Shown: one piece after another, positions 10,957 to 22,667 of the stretch
Numbering within the stretch: the stretch's first letter is position 1
How the letters are laid out: every line of letters begins with the position of its first letter
Assembly: GCA_023379805.1 (NCBI GenBank)
Contig: JAMCPI010000012.1
Span: 1-64,000 of the forward strand
Reading direction: 5' to 3'
Length of the DNA stretch: 64,000 bases
Origin: Nitrososphaerota archaeon
Lineage (GTDB): Archaea > Thermoproteota > Nitrososphaeria > Nitrososphaerales > JACPRH01
Translations under genes and position numbers: made by a program
Notes under the pieces: generated by a model
Told to the model about the DNA's origin: nothing
Seen by the model: the letters and a program-made list of their open reading frames with translations, nothing else
The model's database searches: none

Positions 10957-11874
10957 CTAGTATGTTACATCCTCATCGTTCTGGAGTTCGATTTTGACGA
11001 TATCAGTACCGACTTTGACGCCTGTGAACTTCAGATCCTCGACGATTCGCTCCTGCTTATCTACGTAAGCGTCGCCCGCATCGTATTCTATACTGTCAAC
11101 AGTGACCTGCAGGTAGTAGTTGTAGCCGCCGCTGATAACGCCGCCCTGCCACTTTGCGATGAGCTTTACTTGTGTCCCGTTCAGAAAGTTAGTTAGATGC
11201 GTAGTATTCAAAAACCTGATACTCATGGCACCGCTGATTTCCAGAGCACCCGTCTCTATTCGTGGAAGCGTACGTGACGTAATCGTGTGGTGGTTGCTCT
11301 TCAGATTGTTTTTAATTGAAAGCTTGAAAGATTCAGGAGTAGCGGCGGAGCCGGCGAGCGTGAACGTATTGGTCAATACCGCATAGGCTTGGGTGTTGAA
11401 CGTAGGCGATCCGACTGTTCCAGTTGTTTCATTTGCACCGATACCTTTTACCTTGATCTTGAGGAACTCATCGGGCTGGCATTCAAGGTCAAGCTGATCT
11501 ACGCCGTAGCCTGATACTATCTTCTCAGTTACATCGTGGAGCCCTACTCTGGCTGTGATGCTCGGCAGGCTCCCCAAAGCGTTGTGCGTAAAGGTGTGTA
11601 GAGCAACACCTGCTGTCGGGTTAGTCTTGTTCTCATCGCCGAGGAGTGCCTTCAGAATCAGCCCTACATTCTTGTAGTTAACGTACTGGCTCCAACCTCC
11701 AGTCACCTTCTTAGGGCCTCCAATACTCATCGACAATGCACGTGACTCAACTGTCAGGCTTCGAATAGGCTGGTTGGCGAATGTAAGATCCTCGTCTATG
11801 CAGGGGATCGCATAACTGCCCGCTACCGGCGTGTCGTAAGTTGACTCTTTACCTATATTCACATATCTTGTCAA
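10957..11874 (-). CDS. Major tail tube protein
   Basis: 305 residues, starting TRYVNIGKESTYDTPVAGSY, a form typical of phage tail tube proteins. It is beta-rich and contains LPRIETGALEISG, a tube-fold pattern. It lies between the tail terminator-like gene and the chaperones. It should form the hexameric rings of the tail stacked around the tape measure. Confidence 0.83.
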   Translation of the reverse strand: MTRYVNIGKESTYDTPVAGSYAIPCIDEDLTFANQPIRSLTVESRALSMSIGGPKKVTGGWSQYVNYKNVGLILKALLGDENKTNPTAGVALHTFTHNALGSLPSITARVGLHDVTEKIVSGYGVDQLDLECQPDEFLKIKVKGIGANETTGTVGSPTFNTQAYAVLTNTFTLAGSAATPESFKLSIKNNLKSNHHTITSRTLPRIETGALEISGAMSIRFLNTTHLTNFLNGTQVKLIAKWQGGVISGGYNYYLQVTVDSIEYDAGDAYVDKQERIVEDLKFTGVKVGTDIVKIELQNDEDVTY

Positions 11875-12971: not shown

Positions 12972-13369
12972 CAGCTGACCCTCGCTATGCTGCCGCGCTC
13001 ATCGCGTACAAACGACTTCACAGTCTTGAGCGCGGTTTTCAGAAAGTTCTGTTTGAAATGAGTATCAATGAACTCCTGAAGCCTCTCCTTCGCTTCACGA
13101 ACAAATGGATGATCTTTCGCCTCATCAACAGATGAGCGCCGCATTCTGAAGACCCCGGCAACCCACTCATTCTCAATATCTGCCAACTCGTCAATCAGCG
13201 CTGGAGATATAATGGCGGGATCGACGTGTTTCTTGACGATTAGGTTGATGCGCTTATTCACGGCGCTCTGAATATTCTGGATCTCAGTGTCGCTGGCTGT
13301 GTTGCTGCTAGGTGTTGCAAGCCACTCTTTGACGCCGGCGAGCGTACCCCAGACCATTGCTAACGCCAC
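12971..13369 (-). CDS. Head-tail connector-like protein
   Basis: 132 residues, mostly helical. The region SSNTASDTEIQNIQSAVNKR resembles the first helices of gp6-type connector proteins, which bind beneath the portal. Position after the capsid genes fits. It overlaps the stop of the glycosyltransferase gene by 10 bases. Confidence 0.6.
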   Translation of the reverse strand: MALAMVWGTLAGVKEWLATPSSNTASDTEIQNIQSAVNKRINLIVKKHVDPAIISPALIDELADIENEWVAGVFRMRRSSVDEAKDHPFVREAKERLQEFIDTHFKQNFLKTALKTVKSFVRDERGSIARVS

Positions 13370-14037
13370 TTCTCCCTGAGCATCTGCTCCTTGCAGACGT
13401 TGCCAGCTTCATCTCGCTCTTTCGAACGATAACCGAGATGCAGGTTGACTACACCGAAGCCGTTGAAAAAGAGGCTGTCAGGGCTCGGCGCAGGCGCAGG
13501 ATTCGCCTTCAAGTCACAAATAACCTGGTCGCCGTGAAGTATCCGGAACCAATGATCATACTTCAAGTCGCTGCAGGCAACGAAGATACGGGGTCTCCAG
13601 TCCCAAGCTCCTCTCCAGTGAAGCACTCTGACGTAACCGATGGTGCTGCACTTCATGCTGGTGAACTGGTCTCGGTAGAGGCTGAGGCAATTACCGAACA
13701 GTATCTCATCCCCGTCTAAAACAAGCAGAATATCGCCGGGCCTGTTGGCTGTGAAGAGTTTGTTGCGCTTCTCGCCTTGAGTCATCCGGCTGTACTGCTG
13801 AAGCTTAATCTTGCCTAGACCAAAAAACTCCTCTACCTCTTGAATGCGTTGGAGCGTTTCGTCGGTCGAGTTGTCTTCAGGGCTGGGCCAACCTTCGTAT
13901 GCGCCGTCCATAATCAGGATCTTATCGACATGCGGGTAGACCGAGATGAGTGACTGCCTGATTGTCTCCGCTTCGTTAAGGATGCTGTAGCAAGCAACAA
14001 TTTTTCTTTCGTCAAAAAAAGTTGGGGGAGCAGCCAT
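13360..14037 (-). CDS. Virus-encoded GT2-like glycosyltransferase
   Basis: 225 residues from the ATG at 14037, just after the capsid stop. IVACYSILNEAETIRQSL is the GT-A nucleotide-binding start, and LLVLDGDEILFGN carries the DxD metal site. A conserved-looking W-R-x-R-I-F and an H-W-F-R-I segment follow. The gene sits inside the head operon, so glycosylation of capsid or tail proteins is the most natural inference; modification of host surface sugars is the alternative. Confidence 0.83.
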   Translation of the reverse strand: MAAPPTFFDERKIVACYSILNEAETIRQSLISVYPHVDKILIMDGAYEGWPSPEDNSTDETLQRIQEVEEFFGLGKIKLQQYSRMTQGEKRNKLFTANRPGDILLVLDGDEILFGNCLSLYRDQFTSMKCSTIGYVRVLHWRGAWDWRPRIFVACSDLKYDHWFRILHGDQVICDLKANPAPAPSPDSLFFNGFGVVNLHLGYRSKERDEAGNVCKEQMLREKWR

Positions 14038-14045
14038 TTCTATCA

Positions 14046-16313
14046 CTATGCTGTTATGATTTTGACGAGGCTGTCCGGCTCGACTGCTTTGCAGGCCATG
14101 TCCCAAACTGCTTTGATGACGGTCTGATTCTTCCTGATGTCGTCAAAGGTCTTAATCTGCATATCTCGGCTTACACCTAGGCCGAAGGTGACGCCTTTCT
14201 TGTACACCGCAGCGTGATATGTGGTTGTGGTACCTGAACCTGTGCCTGTAGGAACTTTCGTGCTCCGCCTGACCTCTACGCCGTAGACGCTCGGAATTAC
14301 ACCTGTGATCTGAGTCTTCTCGCCGAAGATATGCGCCTGTCTCACGTCGGAATGCTTCAGTAACGCGTCGAACTGGACTGGGTGAAGCACCGCCACCAGA
14401 TCCGATGGGTCGTAGCCTTTGTTAGTGATGTTCTTGATTGCAGATGCGATTCGCGCCGGTGCAAAGGTCATCGCCGAAGTAATGTTGCCCTCTGCGCCCA
14501 CCGATTCATCTCCGTAAAGTGTCGCCGCAGGCGTCGCCGTGTTCGCTTCAGTGAGTATCAGGTTGTCTTCATCGTAGAGTTCGCTTAGCCGGAATGTTTC
14601 CGTGACTGCTTGAATGATGTTGCCGATTGACTTTGCCTCAAGCTCGTAGGATACGTTGAGCTGGAGTCCACGCGGTGAAGGTACCGCGTCCACCGTGGAT
14701 AGTGTCGGTGAAACCTCGGTGGGCTCGGTGTTCTCGGTCAACGCGCCTGCTGCAGCAACCTTTACTGTGCCGAACCGAACTCTGTCCGCCCCTTTTGGAA
14801 CGGTTACGAACTGTATCGTGTCTCTGAGCTGTGATGCAAGCGCAGAAGGAATAATCCTCAGTGGTGGTGCTCCAGTAACGCCGAGTGCAACGCCGGTTGT
14901 TCCTGTGCTGATTGCCTCTGTAACCTTCTTGACGCTAGGCTCGAAGCTCCGAAGCCAATTCAGCCGCTCATCAACGCCGTTAGGTAGATCGATGATTGGG
15001 ACTGTCCAGGTGAATCCGATTGGTTTGGCGAGCCCGGATTCGGCAAGTAGTGCTTGAGCAATCTTGAGATACTTCTCAGCCTCAGCCTCCCAAGGTTCCT
15101 TAGCCTTCTCGCCGTTTACGGACTGCTCCGTTGAAGATACCTTTGCACTTGGTCCCTGCTTCTCCCTATCCCTAAGGGATCCAGCGTGTTCCTTGAAGGC
15201 GGCAACAATGCTCTCGCGCTCCTTCGCCAAGGCTGCGTCAAGATCCTTCGAAGTCACGTATGCTGGCGGTTGCTGTTGTTGTGACTGTTCCTTCTTCTCT
15301 ACTGCTGGCTGCTCTTCCTTTTTCTCCTCTGTTTTCTGCTCCTTTTCACTCATCTTCTTTTTTTCTTCCTTTTCCGTTTTGTCGGTTGTTGACTCTTCGC
15401 TCGCCCCGCCCACATCCATCTCCTTGGCGTGGTGGAGAAGATGCTGCCTAGCCTTCGCCTTGACATCCGCAGGAAGATCAGTTTGATCGAGTCGCTGCAA
15501 CGCGTTACGTAGATGTGGAAGATCTACTTCGCCCGATGTATTGTGATGCGGTAGATGCCTGCTCATCCTCGGCACAGTTTTTCCCGACTTGTCCTTCTCA
15601 CCATCCGGGTAAACGGCGGCGAAAGCGGTGTCGGGCAGGTCGTTGATGTACGCTGCATCCCACTCACGCTCAGCCACAATAGATGTAGCCGATGCGGGTT
15701 GAGTCTCATTGGCCACATCCTCATGCTTCTGGGTTTCAGAGGCGGTTTGGATGTGGCTCTCCTCGGTCTTTTCAGGCTGAGGAGCTGCCCCTTCGCCGGC
15801 TTGAACCGGTGAAGACTGGGTTGATGAGACATGTTCTATAACCTCTACAGAAGTTTCAGGTATTCCAGGTGCACAGGTGAGGCTTGCCTCGTAGAAATCC
15901 AGCTCACGAGGAACGCTGTAACCATCAAAACGGTCAAACCGCGAGGGATGTGCACCTAGACTGACGTTGTTGACGCCTCCAGATTTCACAAGAGCGGATT
16001 TACTTTCATCTGTAACCTCAGCATCATACTCAAGACGCATCAACTCATCGTTCCAGTGTAGGTGAGCAGTCCCGATCTGCGGGAGAGTGTAGTTATGCTC
16101 CCAGTACAATGGAACCGTTTTGCCGTCACCGCGCTTCAACTCTTCAGGAAGGTAGAGGTTCTTGTTGCGACTGATACGCGGCGGAGCTAAGACGCCTCGT
16201 ATTCGAGTCGCCTTCTCCGCAACCAACTGTTCAGTAATCTGCGTAGGAAACAACGACGTATACACTGTGTTGTCATTGTTCTGGTTCTCGTTAGCGTCGG
16301 GTTTCCCAGACAT
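14046..16313 (-). CDS. Fused prohead protease, scaffold and HK97-fold major capsid protein
   Basis: 755 residues in one frame. Residues 30-150 are a prohead protease of the HK97/XkdF type; His73 (YWEHN), Ser118 (NNVSLG) and Glu142 (FYEASL) are spaced like the known H-S-E triad. A following LPHHNTSGEVDLPHLRNAL segment is common in such proteases. Residues 290-400 are Lys/Glu/Gln-rich and helical (scaffold or delta domain). Residues 410-755 are the capsid fold (P-domain RADRVRFG-like beta, TTYHAAVYKKGVTFGLG near the end). Met321 could be an independent start: it follows a GGAAG motif and an A7 run. The start codon abuts the portal stop. Confidence 0.88.
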   Translation of the reverse strand: MSGKPDANENQNNDNTVYTSLFPTQITEQLVAEKATRIRGVLAPPRISRNKNLYLPEELKRGDGKTVPLYWEHNYTLPQIGTAHLHWNDELMRLEYDAEVTDESKSALVKSGGVNNVSLGAHPSRFDRFDGYSVPRELDFYEASLTCAPGIPETSVEVIEHVSSTQSSPVQAGEGAAPQPEKTEESHIQTASETQKHEDVANETQPASATSIVAEREWDAAYINDLPDTAFAAVYPDGEKDKSGKTVPRMSRHLPHHNTSGEVDLPHLRNALQRLDQTDLPADVKAKARQHLLHHAKEMDVGGASEESTTDKTEKEEKKKMSEKEQKTEEKKEEQPAVEKKEQSQQQQPPAYVTSKDLDAALAKERESIVAAFKEHAGSLRDREKQGPSAKVSSTEQSVNGEKAKEPWEAEAEKYLKIAQALLAESGLAKPIGFTWTVPIIDLPNGVDERLNWLRSFEPSVKKVTEAISTGTTGVALGVTGAPPLRIIPSALASQLRDTIQFVTVPKGADRVRFGTVKVAAAGALTENTEPTEVSPTLSTVDAVPSPRGLQLNVSYELEAKSIGNIIQAVTETFRLSELYDEDNLILTEANTATPAATLYGDESVGAEGNITSAMTFAPARIASAIKNITNKGYDPSDLVAVLHPVQFDALLKHSDVRQAHIFGEKTQITGVIPSVYGVEVRRSTKVPTGTGSGTTTTYHAAVYKKGVTFGLGVSRDMQIKTFDDIRKNQTVIKAVWDMACKAVEPDSLVKIITA
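15358..15364 (-). other. A7 run at the protease/capsid junction (possible slippage site)
   Basis: On the coding strand seven A residues lie just before the ATG at 15353. One extra A would end the protease frame at a TGA that overlaps this ATG (ATGAGTGA), the ordinary arrangement of two coupled genes. As written the frames are fused. This could be real fusion, transcript or ribosome slippage, or a base-count error. Confidence 0.5.
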
Positions 16314-17513
16314 CTACTCCTTTTCCTCCATCGTAGATGTCGTTGCTGGTGTCTGAGGTTCCCAGATTTCGAAGCCGAACTTCTGAAGGTTCTTCCGATA
16401 CTCATCTGGGCGGATGCCTCCGAGTTTGAAGGCTTCACTTAACGCCTCGAAGGTCAGCTCAGGCGAGTCAGGGGTTCCCCAGTGCAGCTTCACTCCGCTT
16501 CTACCGGGGTCGACTCCGCGAGCCTCAAGCAGAGGCTTCACCACCAGCCGTTCATAGCGGCGTTTCAGGAAGCGTTGAAGCATCACCCGGAACGCTTCAG
16601 CAATCTCTAATGCGGCGTTAGCAGAAGCTTCGGTGAAACCTGTTGTAGTTAGGAGACGCGGAAGCGGCGTTTCAAGCCCAAGATAGGTTTGGTTGAGAAG
16701 CCACTCCAGCATATAGTCAAATCTGCCTTGGCTTGACACGCTTAGCTCCTTGAAATCGACCTTAGCGTTTGTAGCGAAATCCTCCCCGGGCTTAGAGCCC
16801 TGTATTTGCGGCTTGATTATTCGCTCAAACTTCTCATCGCTAACATCGAACTGTATCAGGAACCGAGGCGGATACTTGTGGATAAGCCGCCGCATATCAT
16901 TCTCAATCTGAGCCTTAATGTCAAGCAGAGCCGGAACAGTATCACCGCAAGAATCCACCCTTGTATTAGCAAGCGGCGAAAGCATCCCGACGCCGAAGGC
17001 GGAGCGGTCAACCGGGTTCCACGCAAAATGCAGAATATCCTTCGAGCTAAGCGGCGTCTCTGCGCCGCCTATCCGCTGAATGATATCGACTACCTGACCA
17101 GTTTCCGTCCGTCGAATCTTAATGATGCTTGAAAGCTCCACTAACAGCGATGTAAGCTCAGGTGGGCTAGCCCAACTCTTAGGCTTCTCAGTGAAACTGT
17201 TCCCAGCATAAAGAATCTCGGTGCAGACCTGCTGCAGCCACTCGTCAACCGCCGCATCTTCGTTAAACTCCTCTACAACACTCAGCGCCTTAGCAGTATC
17301 AGCGGTCACGTAGAAGCCGCTGCCAATCGTCTGCGCCACAAGATTATCAACAGACGCCTTAACCGATGAATCGCAGAGGTAATAATCTCGCAGAGCAGCG
17401 AACGTAACCTCAGGATGCTCACCCACAGTAGGCTGCCAAACAGTTACGACCTTCGCCCGCTCCGTGACAGCTGAAGCCAACCTACCCTTCAGAGCAACAA
17501 GAACAGACGACAA
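16314..17513 (-). CDS. Portal protein
   Basis: 399 residues. Forms the dodecameric ring through which DNA is packaged. The early YLCDSSVKASVDNLVAQTIG and the KDILHFAWNPVD block (the usual 'H-x-R/W-x-N' wing motif) are typical of portals, and the C-terminal third is a long helix-rich stem/crown (ANAALEIAEAFRVMLQRFLK). The start is a TTG at 17513, with a TATA box 28-37 bases upstream, so the transcript is nearly leaderless. First gene of the long minus-strand operon. Confidence 0.87.
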   Translation of the reverse strand: MSSVLVALKGRLASAVTERAKVVTVWQPTVGEHPEVTFAALRDYYLCDSSVKASVDNLVAQTIGSGFYVTADTAKALSVVEEFNEDAAVDEWLQQVCTEILYAGNSFTEKPKSWASPPELTSLLVELSSIIKIRRTETGQVVDIIQRIGGAETPLSSKDILHFAWNPVDRSAFGVGMLSPLANTRVDSCGDTVPALLDIKAQIENDMRRLIHKYPPRFLIQFDVSDEKFERIIKPQIQGSKPGEDFATNAKVDFKELSVSSQGRFDYMLEWLLNQTYLGLETPLPRLLTTTGFTEASANAALEIAEAFRVMLQRFLKRRYERLVVKPLLEARGVDPGRSGVKLHWGTPDSPELTFEALSEAFKLGGIRPDEYRKNLQKFGFEIWEPQTPATTSTMEEKE

Positions 17514-19894: not shown

Positions 19895-21145
19895 ATGGCG
19901 GAAGAAAAGCTGAAGGTGATTAAGGAAGATCCTGTCGCTTTCGCCAAGTTTATCTTGGATTTCCATCCGTTCCCGTATCAGGAAAGTATCCTCAGCAACG
20001 ATTCCGAGCGATTAATCGCAGTTTGCGGCCGACAAATAGGAAAGTCCACTACTGCAGCAGCTAAACTAGTCCACTTCGCTGTGACACATCCCAAGACAAC
20101 GTCGATTATTGTTTCAGCTACGTTACGTCAATCAATGGAGATGTTCAGCAAAGTCAGAATGTTCACCGACTCATCTATAGTGAAGCGAAGCATAACTCGT
20201 ATGACACGAACTCAAATCTTCTTCAATAATGGTAGCCGAATTATTTGCTTGCCCTGTGGCCGCTACGGCTCGACACTCCGCGGTTTAACAGTTCATTTCG
20301 CGGTCGTTGATGAAGCGGCGTTCATTTACCCAGAGGTAATTGAGTCGGTAATATTTCCTATGCTTGCGACAACGCATGGCAGAATTTGGCTACTGACTAC
20401 TCCTTGGGATCGAGCCCATATCACTTACAAGGCATTTACGTCTTGGCCGAAAGATTCGGTATATCACTTCCCATCATCAATCAACCCGTTAATCACTCCG
20501 GCCTTCCTAGATGAGCAGTTGAACCTGATAGGTCAGGAACGGTACAATCAAGAGTACCTGGCTCAGTTCGTAGATGATTCTCGCTCATATTTTCCAATGA
20601 CACTGATACGTCCTTGCATAGGCGAAACTCCAATCAGTTCAGACTGTTGCTTCGCAGGATACGATCCAGGAGGCAAAGAGAGCTATGCAGCTGCGGTAGC
20701 TGTAAACAAGCGACAAGACAAACTTGTTGTAAGGCGGATCTGGAGCGCTAAAGGGTTGAGTTACACCGAGGCAACATTGAAAGTAGCTGAGATGTGTAAA
20801 CTCCTAAACGCAGAAAACCTGTACGTCGACCAAACGGGTCTCGGGCAACCAGTTGTTGAGCACATCAAGGATCTTGGAATAAGTGTTGACGGCTTGGTTC
20901 TGACCGATAAGCGAAGAGAGGAGTTATTCACAAACTTGAAGCTACTACTTGAACAGCGAAAAATCATTTTACCAGACAACTTGGAACTAATCAAATCCCT
21001 AAACTGCATCGAATACGAGCGGACACGAGTCGGAGGCTTCCGCTTCACTCATCGACAAGGCACTTACGATGATCTAGCATTCGCACTAGCATTAGCATGC
21101 TGGGCAGTCAAGATGCAACCAAGCGGAGCGATTGTAAAGCTGTGA
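19895..21145 (+). CDS. terL: Terminase large subunit
   Basis: 416 residues. DNA-packaging motor and nuclease. Walker A is CGRQIGKST with Lys50; Walker B is FAVVDEAAF near residues 136-144; the coupling motif is LLTTPWD. The RNase H-like nuclease domain has acidic residues in FAGYDPGG (about 256), LYVDQTGLG (about 311) and TYDDLAFA (about 391). All main catalytic positions are present, so it is probably functional. It confirms a tailed (Caudoviricetes) virus. Confidence 0.95.
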   Translation: MAEEKLKVIKEDPVAFAKFILDFHPFPYQESILSNDSERLIAVCGRQIGKSTTAAAKLVHFAVTHPKTTSIIVSATLRQSMEMFSKVRMFTDSSIVKRSITRMTRTQIFFNNGSRIICLPCGRYGSTLRGLTVHFAVVDEAAFIYPEVIESVIFPMLATTHGRIWLLTTPWDRAHITYKAFTSWPKDSVYHFPSSINPLITPAFLDEQLNLIGQERYNQEYLAQFVDDSRSYFPMTLIRPCIGETPISSDCCFAGYDPGGKESYAAAVAVNKRQDKLVVRRIWSAKGLSYTEATLKVAEMCKLLNAENLYVDQTGLGQPVVEHIKDLGISVDGLVLTDKRREELFTNLKLLLEQRKIILPDNLELIKSLNCIEYERTRVGGFRFTHRQGTYDDLAFALALACWAVKMQPSGAIVKL

Positions 21146-21152
21146 TGGATGA

Positions 21153-22667
21153 ATGGTCAAGATTGTTCTTCAACTCCCAGTTCTTCTGAAGAAGCGGTCT
21201 AAGGCGACTTTCAAGGTTAACCAAGGGTTCAAGAGTACATCAGAGGTGACTGATCGAACAATTGCGGTCGGCGAAGCGTTTGGAGTCGGGGTGGATGAGG
21301 AGCAGGTCCACCAAGTTTACCGGAACTTCGAAGTCAATGTAAAACCGGGTGATATCATATACATAACAGGCGAAAGCGGATCAGGAAAATCGACCCTGCT
21401 AAAGGTGCTAGCTAAGCAGCTTCGAGAGCCATTAGCTGCTATCGAGTTCGGAAAAGTATTGTGCGACTGGGAAATGCAGATCAATGGAGATGAGATTCTA
21501 GTTAATGGTGTTGGTCGAGATGTAAACGAAGCTCTTCACTACCTAAGTATCGCCGGGCTAAATGATGCATTCCTCTTCGTTCGCCGGTTCCGGGAACTAA
21601 GTGACGGGCAGAAGTACCGATACAGAATTGCGAAGATGCTCGCAGGAGGCGCGTCCGCTTGGGTTTTTGATGAATTCGCCGCAACACTCGACAGAGAGAC
21701 TGCTAAGATTGTCAGCTTCTGTCTCCAAAAGGTCGCTCGTACTAGCGGCAAAACCGTAGTAATTGCCACTACCCATGAGGATCTATTCATTGACCTAAAA
21801 CCATCTGTCTTCATCAGAAAGGGATGGGGTGAAGACGTACATGTTGATTATCACCCAAATGTTATGGGCAATCTGTGCAGCATCGCGCAGAATGTACGAA
21901 TTAAGAAAGGATCCTACCGAGATTACAAGGATTTATCGCAACTACATTACCGCGCAGGGAAACCTTTCTGCGCCAAAAGAGTATTCAAAGCTGAGATAGC
22001 GGGAAGAGTAATAGGCGTAATAATCTACAGTACTCCCTTGCTTTCAGTCGCAGGACGCAATCAGTTTCTAGGACATACGGCCACGCCTGAAGAAGTGAAC
22101 CGCGATTTCTTAACGATCAGTCGCGTCATTCTTCATCCAAAATTCCGCGGCATAGGCCTCGGCATACGCCTAGTTCAAGAAACCCTACCGCTCGCAGACT
22201 CAAAATACGTTGAGGCAATCGCTGTAATGGCGCGTTACAACCCATTCTTCAGCAAAGCAGGCATGACTGAGATTCCTATCCAACCGACACTGGCAAACCA
22301 TTGCATAAAAACGCTGGAATCCCTAAGACCCTTCGGCTTCAACCCCGTCTTCTGCAGCAGTCTACACTACAATACTCGCATCATTACAAACCTCACAAAA
22401 CAGGAATACTATAGCCTCATCAGCATACTCTCACACCAAGCTCGCTTACTAATATCAAGACGAATGCACCACAACCAAAAAACACCATCAACAGAAGAAA
22501 TCCAAAGCAAACTATCAGCGAACAGAAACCTCGCGTCTCAAAGCATCAAAACCATAGCAATAACCGCCCAACCTAAGAAATACTATATCTGGCCCTGCAA
22601 CAAAACAAATGGCTCAATACAAGAAACAGCAGTCCAACCATTCCTAAACACAACTCCCACAATATAA
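21153..22667 (+). CDS. ABC-type ATPase fused to a GNAT/Mom-like domain
   Basis: 504 residues. Residues 45-225 form an ABC ATPase: Walker A TGESGSGKST (about 73-82), signature LSDGQ (about 150), Walker B AWVFDEFAATLD and the H-loop TTHEDL. No membrane segment, so not a transporter. Residues 250-385 are GNAT-like: YRAGKPFCAKRVF, GVIIYSTPL, then ISRVILHPKFRGIGLGIRLV with the acetyl-CoA loop. This ATPase-GNAT pairing occurs in phages, and the GNAT half recalls Mom DNA-modification enzymes (from memory). It begins 7 bases after the terminase stop, so it is co-expressed with packaging. Confidence 0.83.
   Translation: MVKIVLQLPVLLKKRSKATFKVNQGFKSTSEVTDRTIAVGEAFGVGVDEEQVHQVYRNFEVNVKPGDIIYITGESGSGKSTLLKVLAKQLREPLAAIEFGKVLCDWEMQINGDEILVNGVGRDVNEALHYLSIAGLNDAFLFVRRFRELSDGQKYRYRIAKMLAGGASAWVFDEFAATLDRETAKIVSFCLQKVARTSGKTVVIATTHEDLFIDLKPSVFIRKGWGEDVHVDYHPNVMGNLCSIAQNVRIKKGSYRDYKDLSQLHYRAGKPFCAKRVFKAEIAGRVIGVIIYSTPLLSVAGRNQFLGHTATPEEVNRDFLTISRVILHPKFRGIGLGIRLVQETLPLADSKYVEAIAVMARYNPFFSKAGMTEIPIQPTLANHCIKTLESLRPFGFNPVFCSSLHYNTRIITNLTKQEYYSLISILSHQARLLISRRMHHNQKTPSTEEIQSKLSANRNLASQSIKTIAITAQPKKYYIWPCNKTNGSIQETAVQPFLNTTPTI

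Follow-up and report, generated by a model that had tools for sequence, protein, structure and literature searches.

Gene organization of the provirus head module

The window analyzed here, a stretch of 64,000 nucleotides, comprises bases 1-64000 of a 461-kb contig in a 2.34-Mb genome assembled in 17 contigs. It contains a head-tailed provirus of an uncultured Nitrososphaeria archaeon in which the prohead protease and the major capsid protein (MCP) are genuinely encoded by one gene. This gene occupies positions 14046..16313 of the minus strand and consists of an uninterrupted frame of 755 codons, read from an ATG at 16313 to a stop codon ending at 14046. Directly upstream lies the gene for the portal protein (16314..17513, minus strand; phrog_9232, 2.8e-8; PF04860, 1.1e-4), and the same module includes the tail tube protein (10957..11874, minus strand; PF18906, 1.9e-22) and the terminase large subunit (19895..21145, plus strand; PF03237, 9.5e-20; phrog_2, 3e-44), as in the fused protease-MCP genes of head-tailed proviruses of Thermoproteota. 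The gene directly downstream of the capsid region (13360..14037, minus strand, ATG at 14037) is glycosyltransferase-like; a gene of this type was seen by eye just 3′ of the capsid in three of the five relatives inspected (L028, 6601-7251; L032, 5372-6151; L029, 1284-2207), and its product might modify the capsid. Right after the terminase gene, a 504-aa protein (21153-22667, plus strand) combines an ABC-type ATPase half with an apparent acetyltransferase half.

Domain architecture of the fused protein

A preliminary description made from the DNA letters had read the frame as a protease, a scaffold-like region, and a capsid protein, and this reading is correct, with the three catalytic residues at the positions originally named. 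The prohead protease domain spans residues 36-165 (15819..16208, minus strand) with the catalytic residues H73, S118, and E142, and the N-terminal part of the protein was recognized as a head maturation protease (phrog_3270, 3e-7). Across nine aligned fused homologs, H73 and S118 are invariant and E142 is retained in eight; one member of the homolog alignment matched Peptidase_S78 of Pfam. The C-terminal part corresponds to the major head protein in PHROGs (phrog_267, 6.5e-14), and the profile of the family matched the MCP in PDB entry 5tjt (3e-12), delineating an HK97/T5-type MCP core at residues 480-755 (14049..14876, minus strand). The window protein itself fell below the cut-off in Pfam and had no match in NCBIfam, so that the domain assignment rests on the PHROGs and PDB profiles. 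AlphaFold2 modeling of the whole fused protein from six sequences gave a prediction too poor for use (pLDDT 41, pTM 0.27).

PDB entries 5tjt and 8ho3, which we take to be MCP precursors of the phage T5 type, match the core profile and carry an N-terminal scaffold stretch of similar length. In the T5-type precursor (458 aa), the core match starts near residue 220, and in the candidate free product of the window (435 aa), discussed below, near residue 202. Because of this similar offset, residues 321-479 (14877..15353, minus strand) were read, from their position, as a scaffold- or delta-domain-like stretch. In T5, the protease is encoded by a separate gene, unlike the fusion in the window.

Between the protease and the scaffold-like stretch, there is an accessory domain of about 85 residues (residues 215-305; 15399..15671, minus strand) that had no match in Pfam and is common to relatives. 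It was detected in the fused relatives L130, L131, and G006, in the split relative L121, in IMG/VR contigs L002-L006, and in a bacterial virus, Thermoanaerobacterium phage THSA-485A (53% identity); in several of these loci, it sits C-terminal to a protease. A search of viral contigs for close relatives of the provirus retrieved only such sharers of the accessory domain, and the capsid profile found no close relative among viral contigs.

Fused and split relatives

Protease-MCP fusion is already known in kind, from related archaeal proviruses. It has been published for the thaumarchaeal proviruses Nvie-Pro1, NCAV2-Pro1, and NitIsl-Pro1 (PMC6563490), which, like the window, encode the protease and an HK97-type MCP in one open reading frame (ORF), and both halves of the window protein are homologous to these Thermoproteota fusions. 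A tblastn search with the window protein matched Nvie-Pro1 (Pro-Nvie1, FR725450.1; 1e-23, 34% identity), which is annotated in GenBank as “protease/major capsid protein.” Nvie-Pro1 differs from the window in having no accessory domain, no A7 run, and a shorter linker. Its protease was termed chymotrypsin-like (PMC6563490); nevertheless, it aligns with the H/S/E protease of the window (row L015 of the alignment). The preliminary description also mentioned fused protease-capsid ORFs in some phages. In Pseudomonas phage MD8 (gp5) and MD8-like phages, protease, scaffold, and MCP are predicted to share one gene (PMC8508860), and the MD8 record (KX198612) is annotated “protease and major capsid protein.” MD8 shares this architecture with the window but infects bacteria, and a tblastn search of the phage collection with the window protein did not recover it.

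Relatives were collected by searches of the order, class, and phylum, and the fetched loci were classified with hidden Markov models. This set contains 19 fused relatives, one per genome, all from other Thermoproteota genomes, versus 12 split pairs in which both genes were seen; a further few loci, cut by contig ends or broken, fall outside these counts. The preliminary description had named relatives with always-split genes as a finding that would count against it; relatives are not always split, as both forms occur. Fusion is the commoner architecture among close homologs and is present in single-contig genomes. The closest relative (G017) is fused, with 50-51% identity overall and 65% in the capsid; four genomes of one genus, including one that is a single contig, encode fusions; and in another single-contig genome, the fused protein matches Nvie-Pro1. 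Among the split forms, the capsid gene of G586 starts with a GTG that overlaps the protease stop codon (GTGA) and is preceded by the Shine-Dalgarno (SD) sequence AAGGTGAG. In G074 (locus L121, contig C221), the capsid gene continues the frame of the protease gene after one stop codon, near position 2641, and a short leader. At another locus (L115, contig C14 of G691), the protease is distributed over two overlapping frames (ORFs 608-1204 and 958-1494), either through a frameshift in the gene or through an error of assembly. The fusion is therefore widespread in Thermoproteota proviruses, with fused and split forms in related lineages, and both fusion and fission probably happened more than once. 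We are highly confident that the fused protease-MCP architecture of the window is real.

A candidate internal start at the join

At the boundary between the linker and the scaffold-like stretch, the window contains an in-frame ATG (15351..15353, minus strand) with counterparts in relatives. Translation from this codon (MSEKEQKT...) would yield a free MCP of 435 aa with its scaffold-like stretch, close to the 458 aa of T5-type precursors. The GGAAG motif noted earlier just upstream of this ATG is literally present, but 12 nt separate the SD-like site AAGGAA (15366..15371, minus strand) from the ATG, and its score is no more than -4.0 kcal/mol, a value reached at 47% of codon positions in the fused ORF and no better than chance under synonymous shuffling (P = 0.91). 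Clear SD sites precede several other genes of the same provirus. In the closest relative, G017, the ATG is aligned with a TTG.

The case for a start at this position comes from other fused relatives, in which an in-frame start codon is located at the join or close to it. In G006, the join carries the strong SD sequence GGAGGTGAT, a spacing of 4 nt, and then ATGAGTGAG (-15.9 kcal/mol), and strong SD sequences also precede in-frame join starts in G450 (-12.0 kcal/mol) and G443/G471 (-11.5 kcal/mol). Outside the linkers, 118 in-frame ATGs were scored, and the best of them (-10.3 kcal/mol) falls short of these joins; synonymous shuffling gives the joins modest P values of 0.03-0.30. The SD at the join is weak in others of the fused relatives, and no strong internal SD was found in the fused Nvie-Pro1, G103, and G002; a scan of the MD8 gp5 linker for an internal start with an SD likewise produced nothing striking (best score about -6.6). 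In a six-member alignment, the linker between residues 273 and 329 has a single invariant column, the junction methionine, which is also retained in four related proviruses from a single genus. In seven of nine lineages, the junction start is followed by S, T, or A, against a background of 27% (p = 0.002, with start sites picked by eye); the junction methionines were partly chosen with the SD in view, which makes the combined p of 3e-4 optimistic. Searches of the freely accessible literature returned no earlier description of internal starts in protease-MCP fusions. For the window itself, whether the nested in-frame start is used appears, from its sequence and those of its relatives, to be an even call.

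The A7 run at the join

The homopolymer that had drawn attention to this locus was confirmed. The plus-strand T7 at 15358-15364 corresponds to an A7 run in the mRNA (minus strand; codons GAA AAA AAG), which includes the in-frame heptamer A_AAA_AAG and ends 4 nt upstream of the ATG at 15353-15351, itself in frame with the protease (...EEKKK-MSEKEQ...). It is also correct that one extra A would produce two overlapping genes: with A8, or after a -1 slip, the protease frame reads ...EEK-KEDE-stop and ends at a TGA (15346..15348, minus strand) inside the overlap ATGAGTGA with the ATG. However, any start coded ATG AGT GA. contains this -1 TGA, so the proximity to a two-gene layout is weak evidence; the fused gene of G006, which has no A-run, likewise carries the -1-frame TGA within ATG AGT GA.

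When the linker was recoded synonymously in a simulation with the codon usage of the gene, A7 or a longer run appeared in 41% of the sequences (P = 0.41), and the 64-kb window includes eight A or T runs of exactly 7 and three of exactly 8. The A7 is absent from the ORF in 18 of the 19 fused relatives, including G017. The only exception (L105, contig C7 of G179) is a distant relative with a 779-codon frame and a longer linker, in which A7 runs occur at codons 216 and 329 and not at the join start codon; the linker of this protein has in-frame A_AAA_AAC and A_AAA_AAG, probably by chance. Most likely, the A7 of the window is an incidental product of the Lys/Glu-rich linker; alternatively, it may be a scar left where an indel merged two genes that once overlapped.

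Expression of the fused gene: weighing the alternatives

The explanation we favor for the locus as a whole, and consider fairly probable from these comparisons, is a polyprotein plus a free MCP made from two in-frame starts, with no slippage. Ribosomes would pass the A7 without shifting and produce a protease-linker-scaffold-MCP polyprotein, by which the protease would enter the procapsid as an N-terminal extension on capsid subunits; maturation would then remove the protease together with the scaffold stretch. Initiation at the ATG at 15353 would additionally give a free MCP, still joined to its scaffold stretch, and this short product would be the bulk capsid protein. Hence, the ratio of fusion to free MCP would be set by two starts and not by slippage.

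Programmed slippage, either ribosomal (-1 on A_AAA_AAG) or transcriptional (on A7), would instead yield, in addition to the fusion, a protease of 322 residues on its own, and had been proposed in the preliminary description as a way to fix the protease:capsid ratio. There is precedent in archaea, where A-AAA-AAT is a known site of -1 frameshifting, which has also been reported in archaeal tailed viruses (PMC8211752); the window heptamer is in the right frame with a -1 stop five codons on, and the distant fused relative L105 also contains in-frame slippery heptamers. The proposal nevertheless finds no support in the comparisons: the run is missing in all but one of the fused relatives and is expected by chance, and the RNA 3′ of it is less structured than shuffled sequences (z = +2.3), the 93 nt downstream folding worse than 200 of 200 shuffles. 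Of the sequence features of a frameshift site, the slippery heptamer in the zero frame is present; downstream structure and conservation are missing. A protease-only product also has no evident need, given that the fusion already carries the protease. We therefore rejected slippage on the A7, which is very improbable. An error in base count, offered earlier as the simple alternative, would mean that the true run is A8 and that two genes overlap at ATGAGTGA, much as they do in the split G586 of another lineage; homopolymers are, moreover, the usual place for indel errors. Yet the closest homologs are fused with no run at all, the frames of long window ORFs stay open at four other A/T runs of 7, and an MSE start written ATG AGT GAA brings the -1 TGA automatically. 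Since published protease-MCP fusions exist, in thaumarchaeal proviruses as well as in MD8, and the fused form is the commoner one among close homologs, including those in single-contig genomes, such an error is not needed to explain the frame and is improbable.

The simplest rival to two starts is a polyprotein cut only by its own protease. Here, the fusion would be the sole product, the protease domain would trim itself and the scaffold off every MCP inside the procapsid, and the ATG would be an unused relic of two once separate genes, for which the GTGA overlap in the split sibling G586 suggests a possible source. The poor SD of the window and the fusions with no strong internal SD (Nvie-Pro1, G103, G002) fit this scheme; it leaves unexplained the join SDs of G006, G450, and G443/G471 and the retained junction methionine, and one protease per capsid subunit would probably be a large load inside the shell. 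We regard it as rather unlikely, albeit a more serious contender than slippage or a base-count error.

Implications

The favored arrangement of two in-frame starts has counterparts in known systems. In herpesviruses, UL26/UL26.5 give a long protease-bearing product and an in-frame shorter one with the same C-terminus (PMC12474303), and the nested genes C/Nu3 of phage lambda are described in a secondary account as following the same logic (PMC8508860, citing Shaw and Murialdo 1980). In both cases, only the scaffold is made as the nested product, and the MCP comes from a gene of its own, whereas the candidate nested product in the window is scaffold plus MCP.

The striking layout “one base from two genes” has an ordinary explanation. 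The idea of a nested start at the join is partly new and is drawn from the relatives. Extended to Thermoproteota fusions in general, it would make the fused protease-MCP gene a two-start gene, in which a minority fusion delivers the protease and the majority product is free scaffold-MCP from a conserved join codon; we put this forward tentatively, as a possibility somewhat short of even. If true, the nested start would be a simple means of dosing the maturation protease into the capsid. It would amount to Gag-Pol-like dosing brought about by nested initiation, in which the shorter product is the capsid protein itself.
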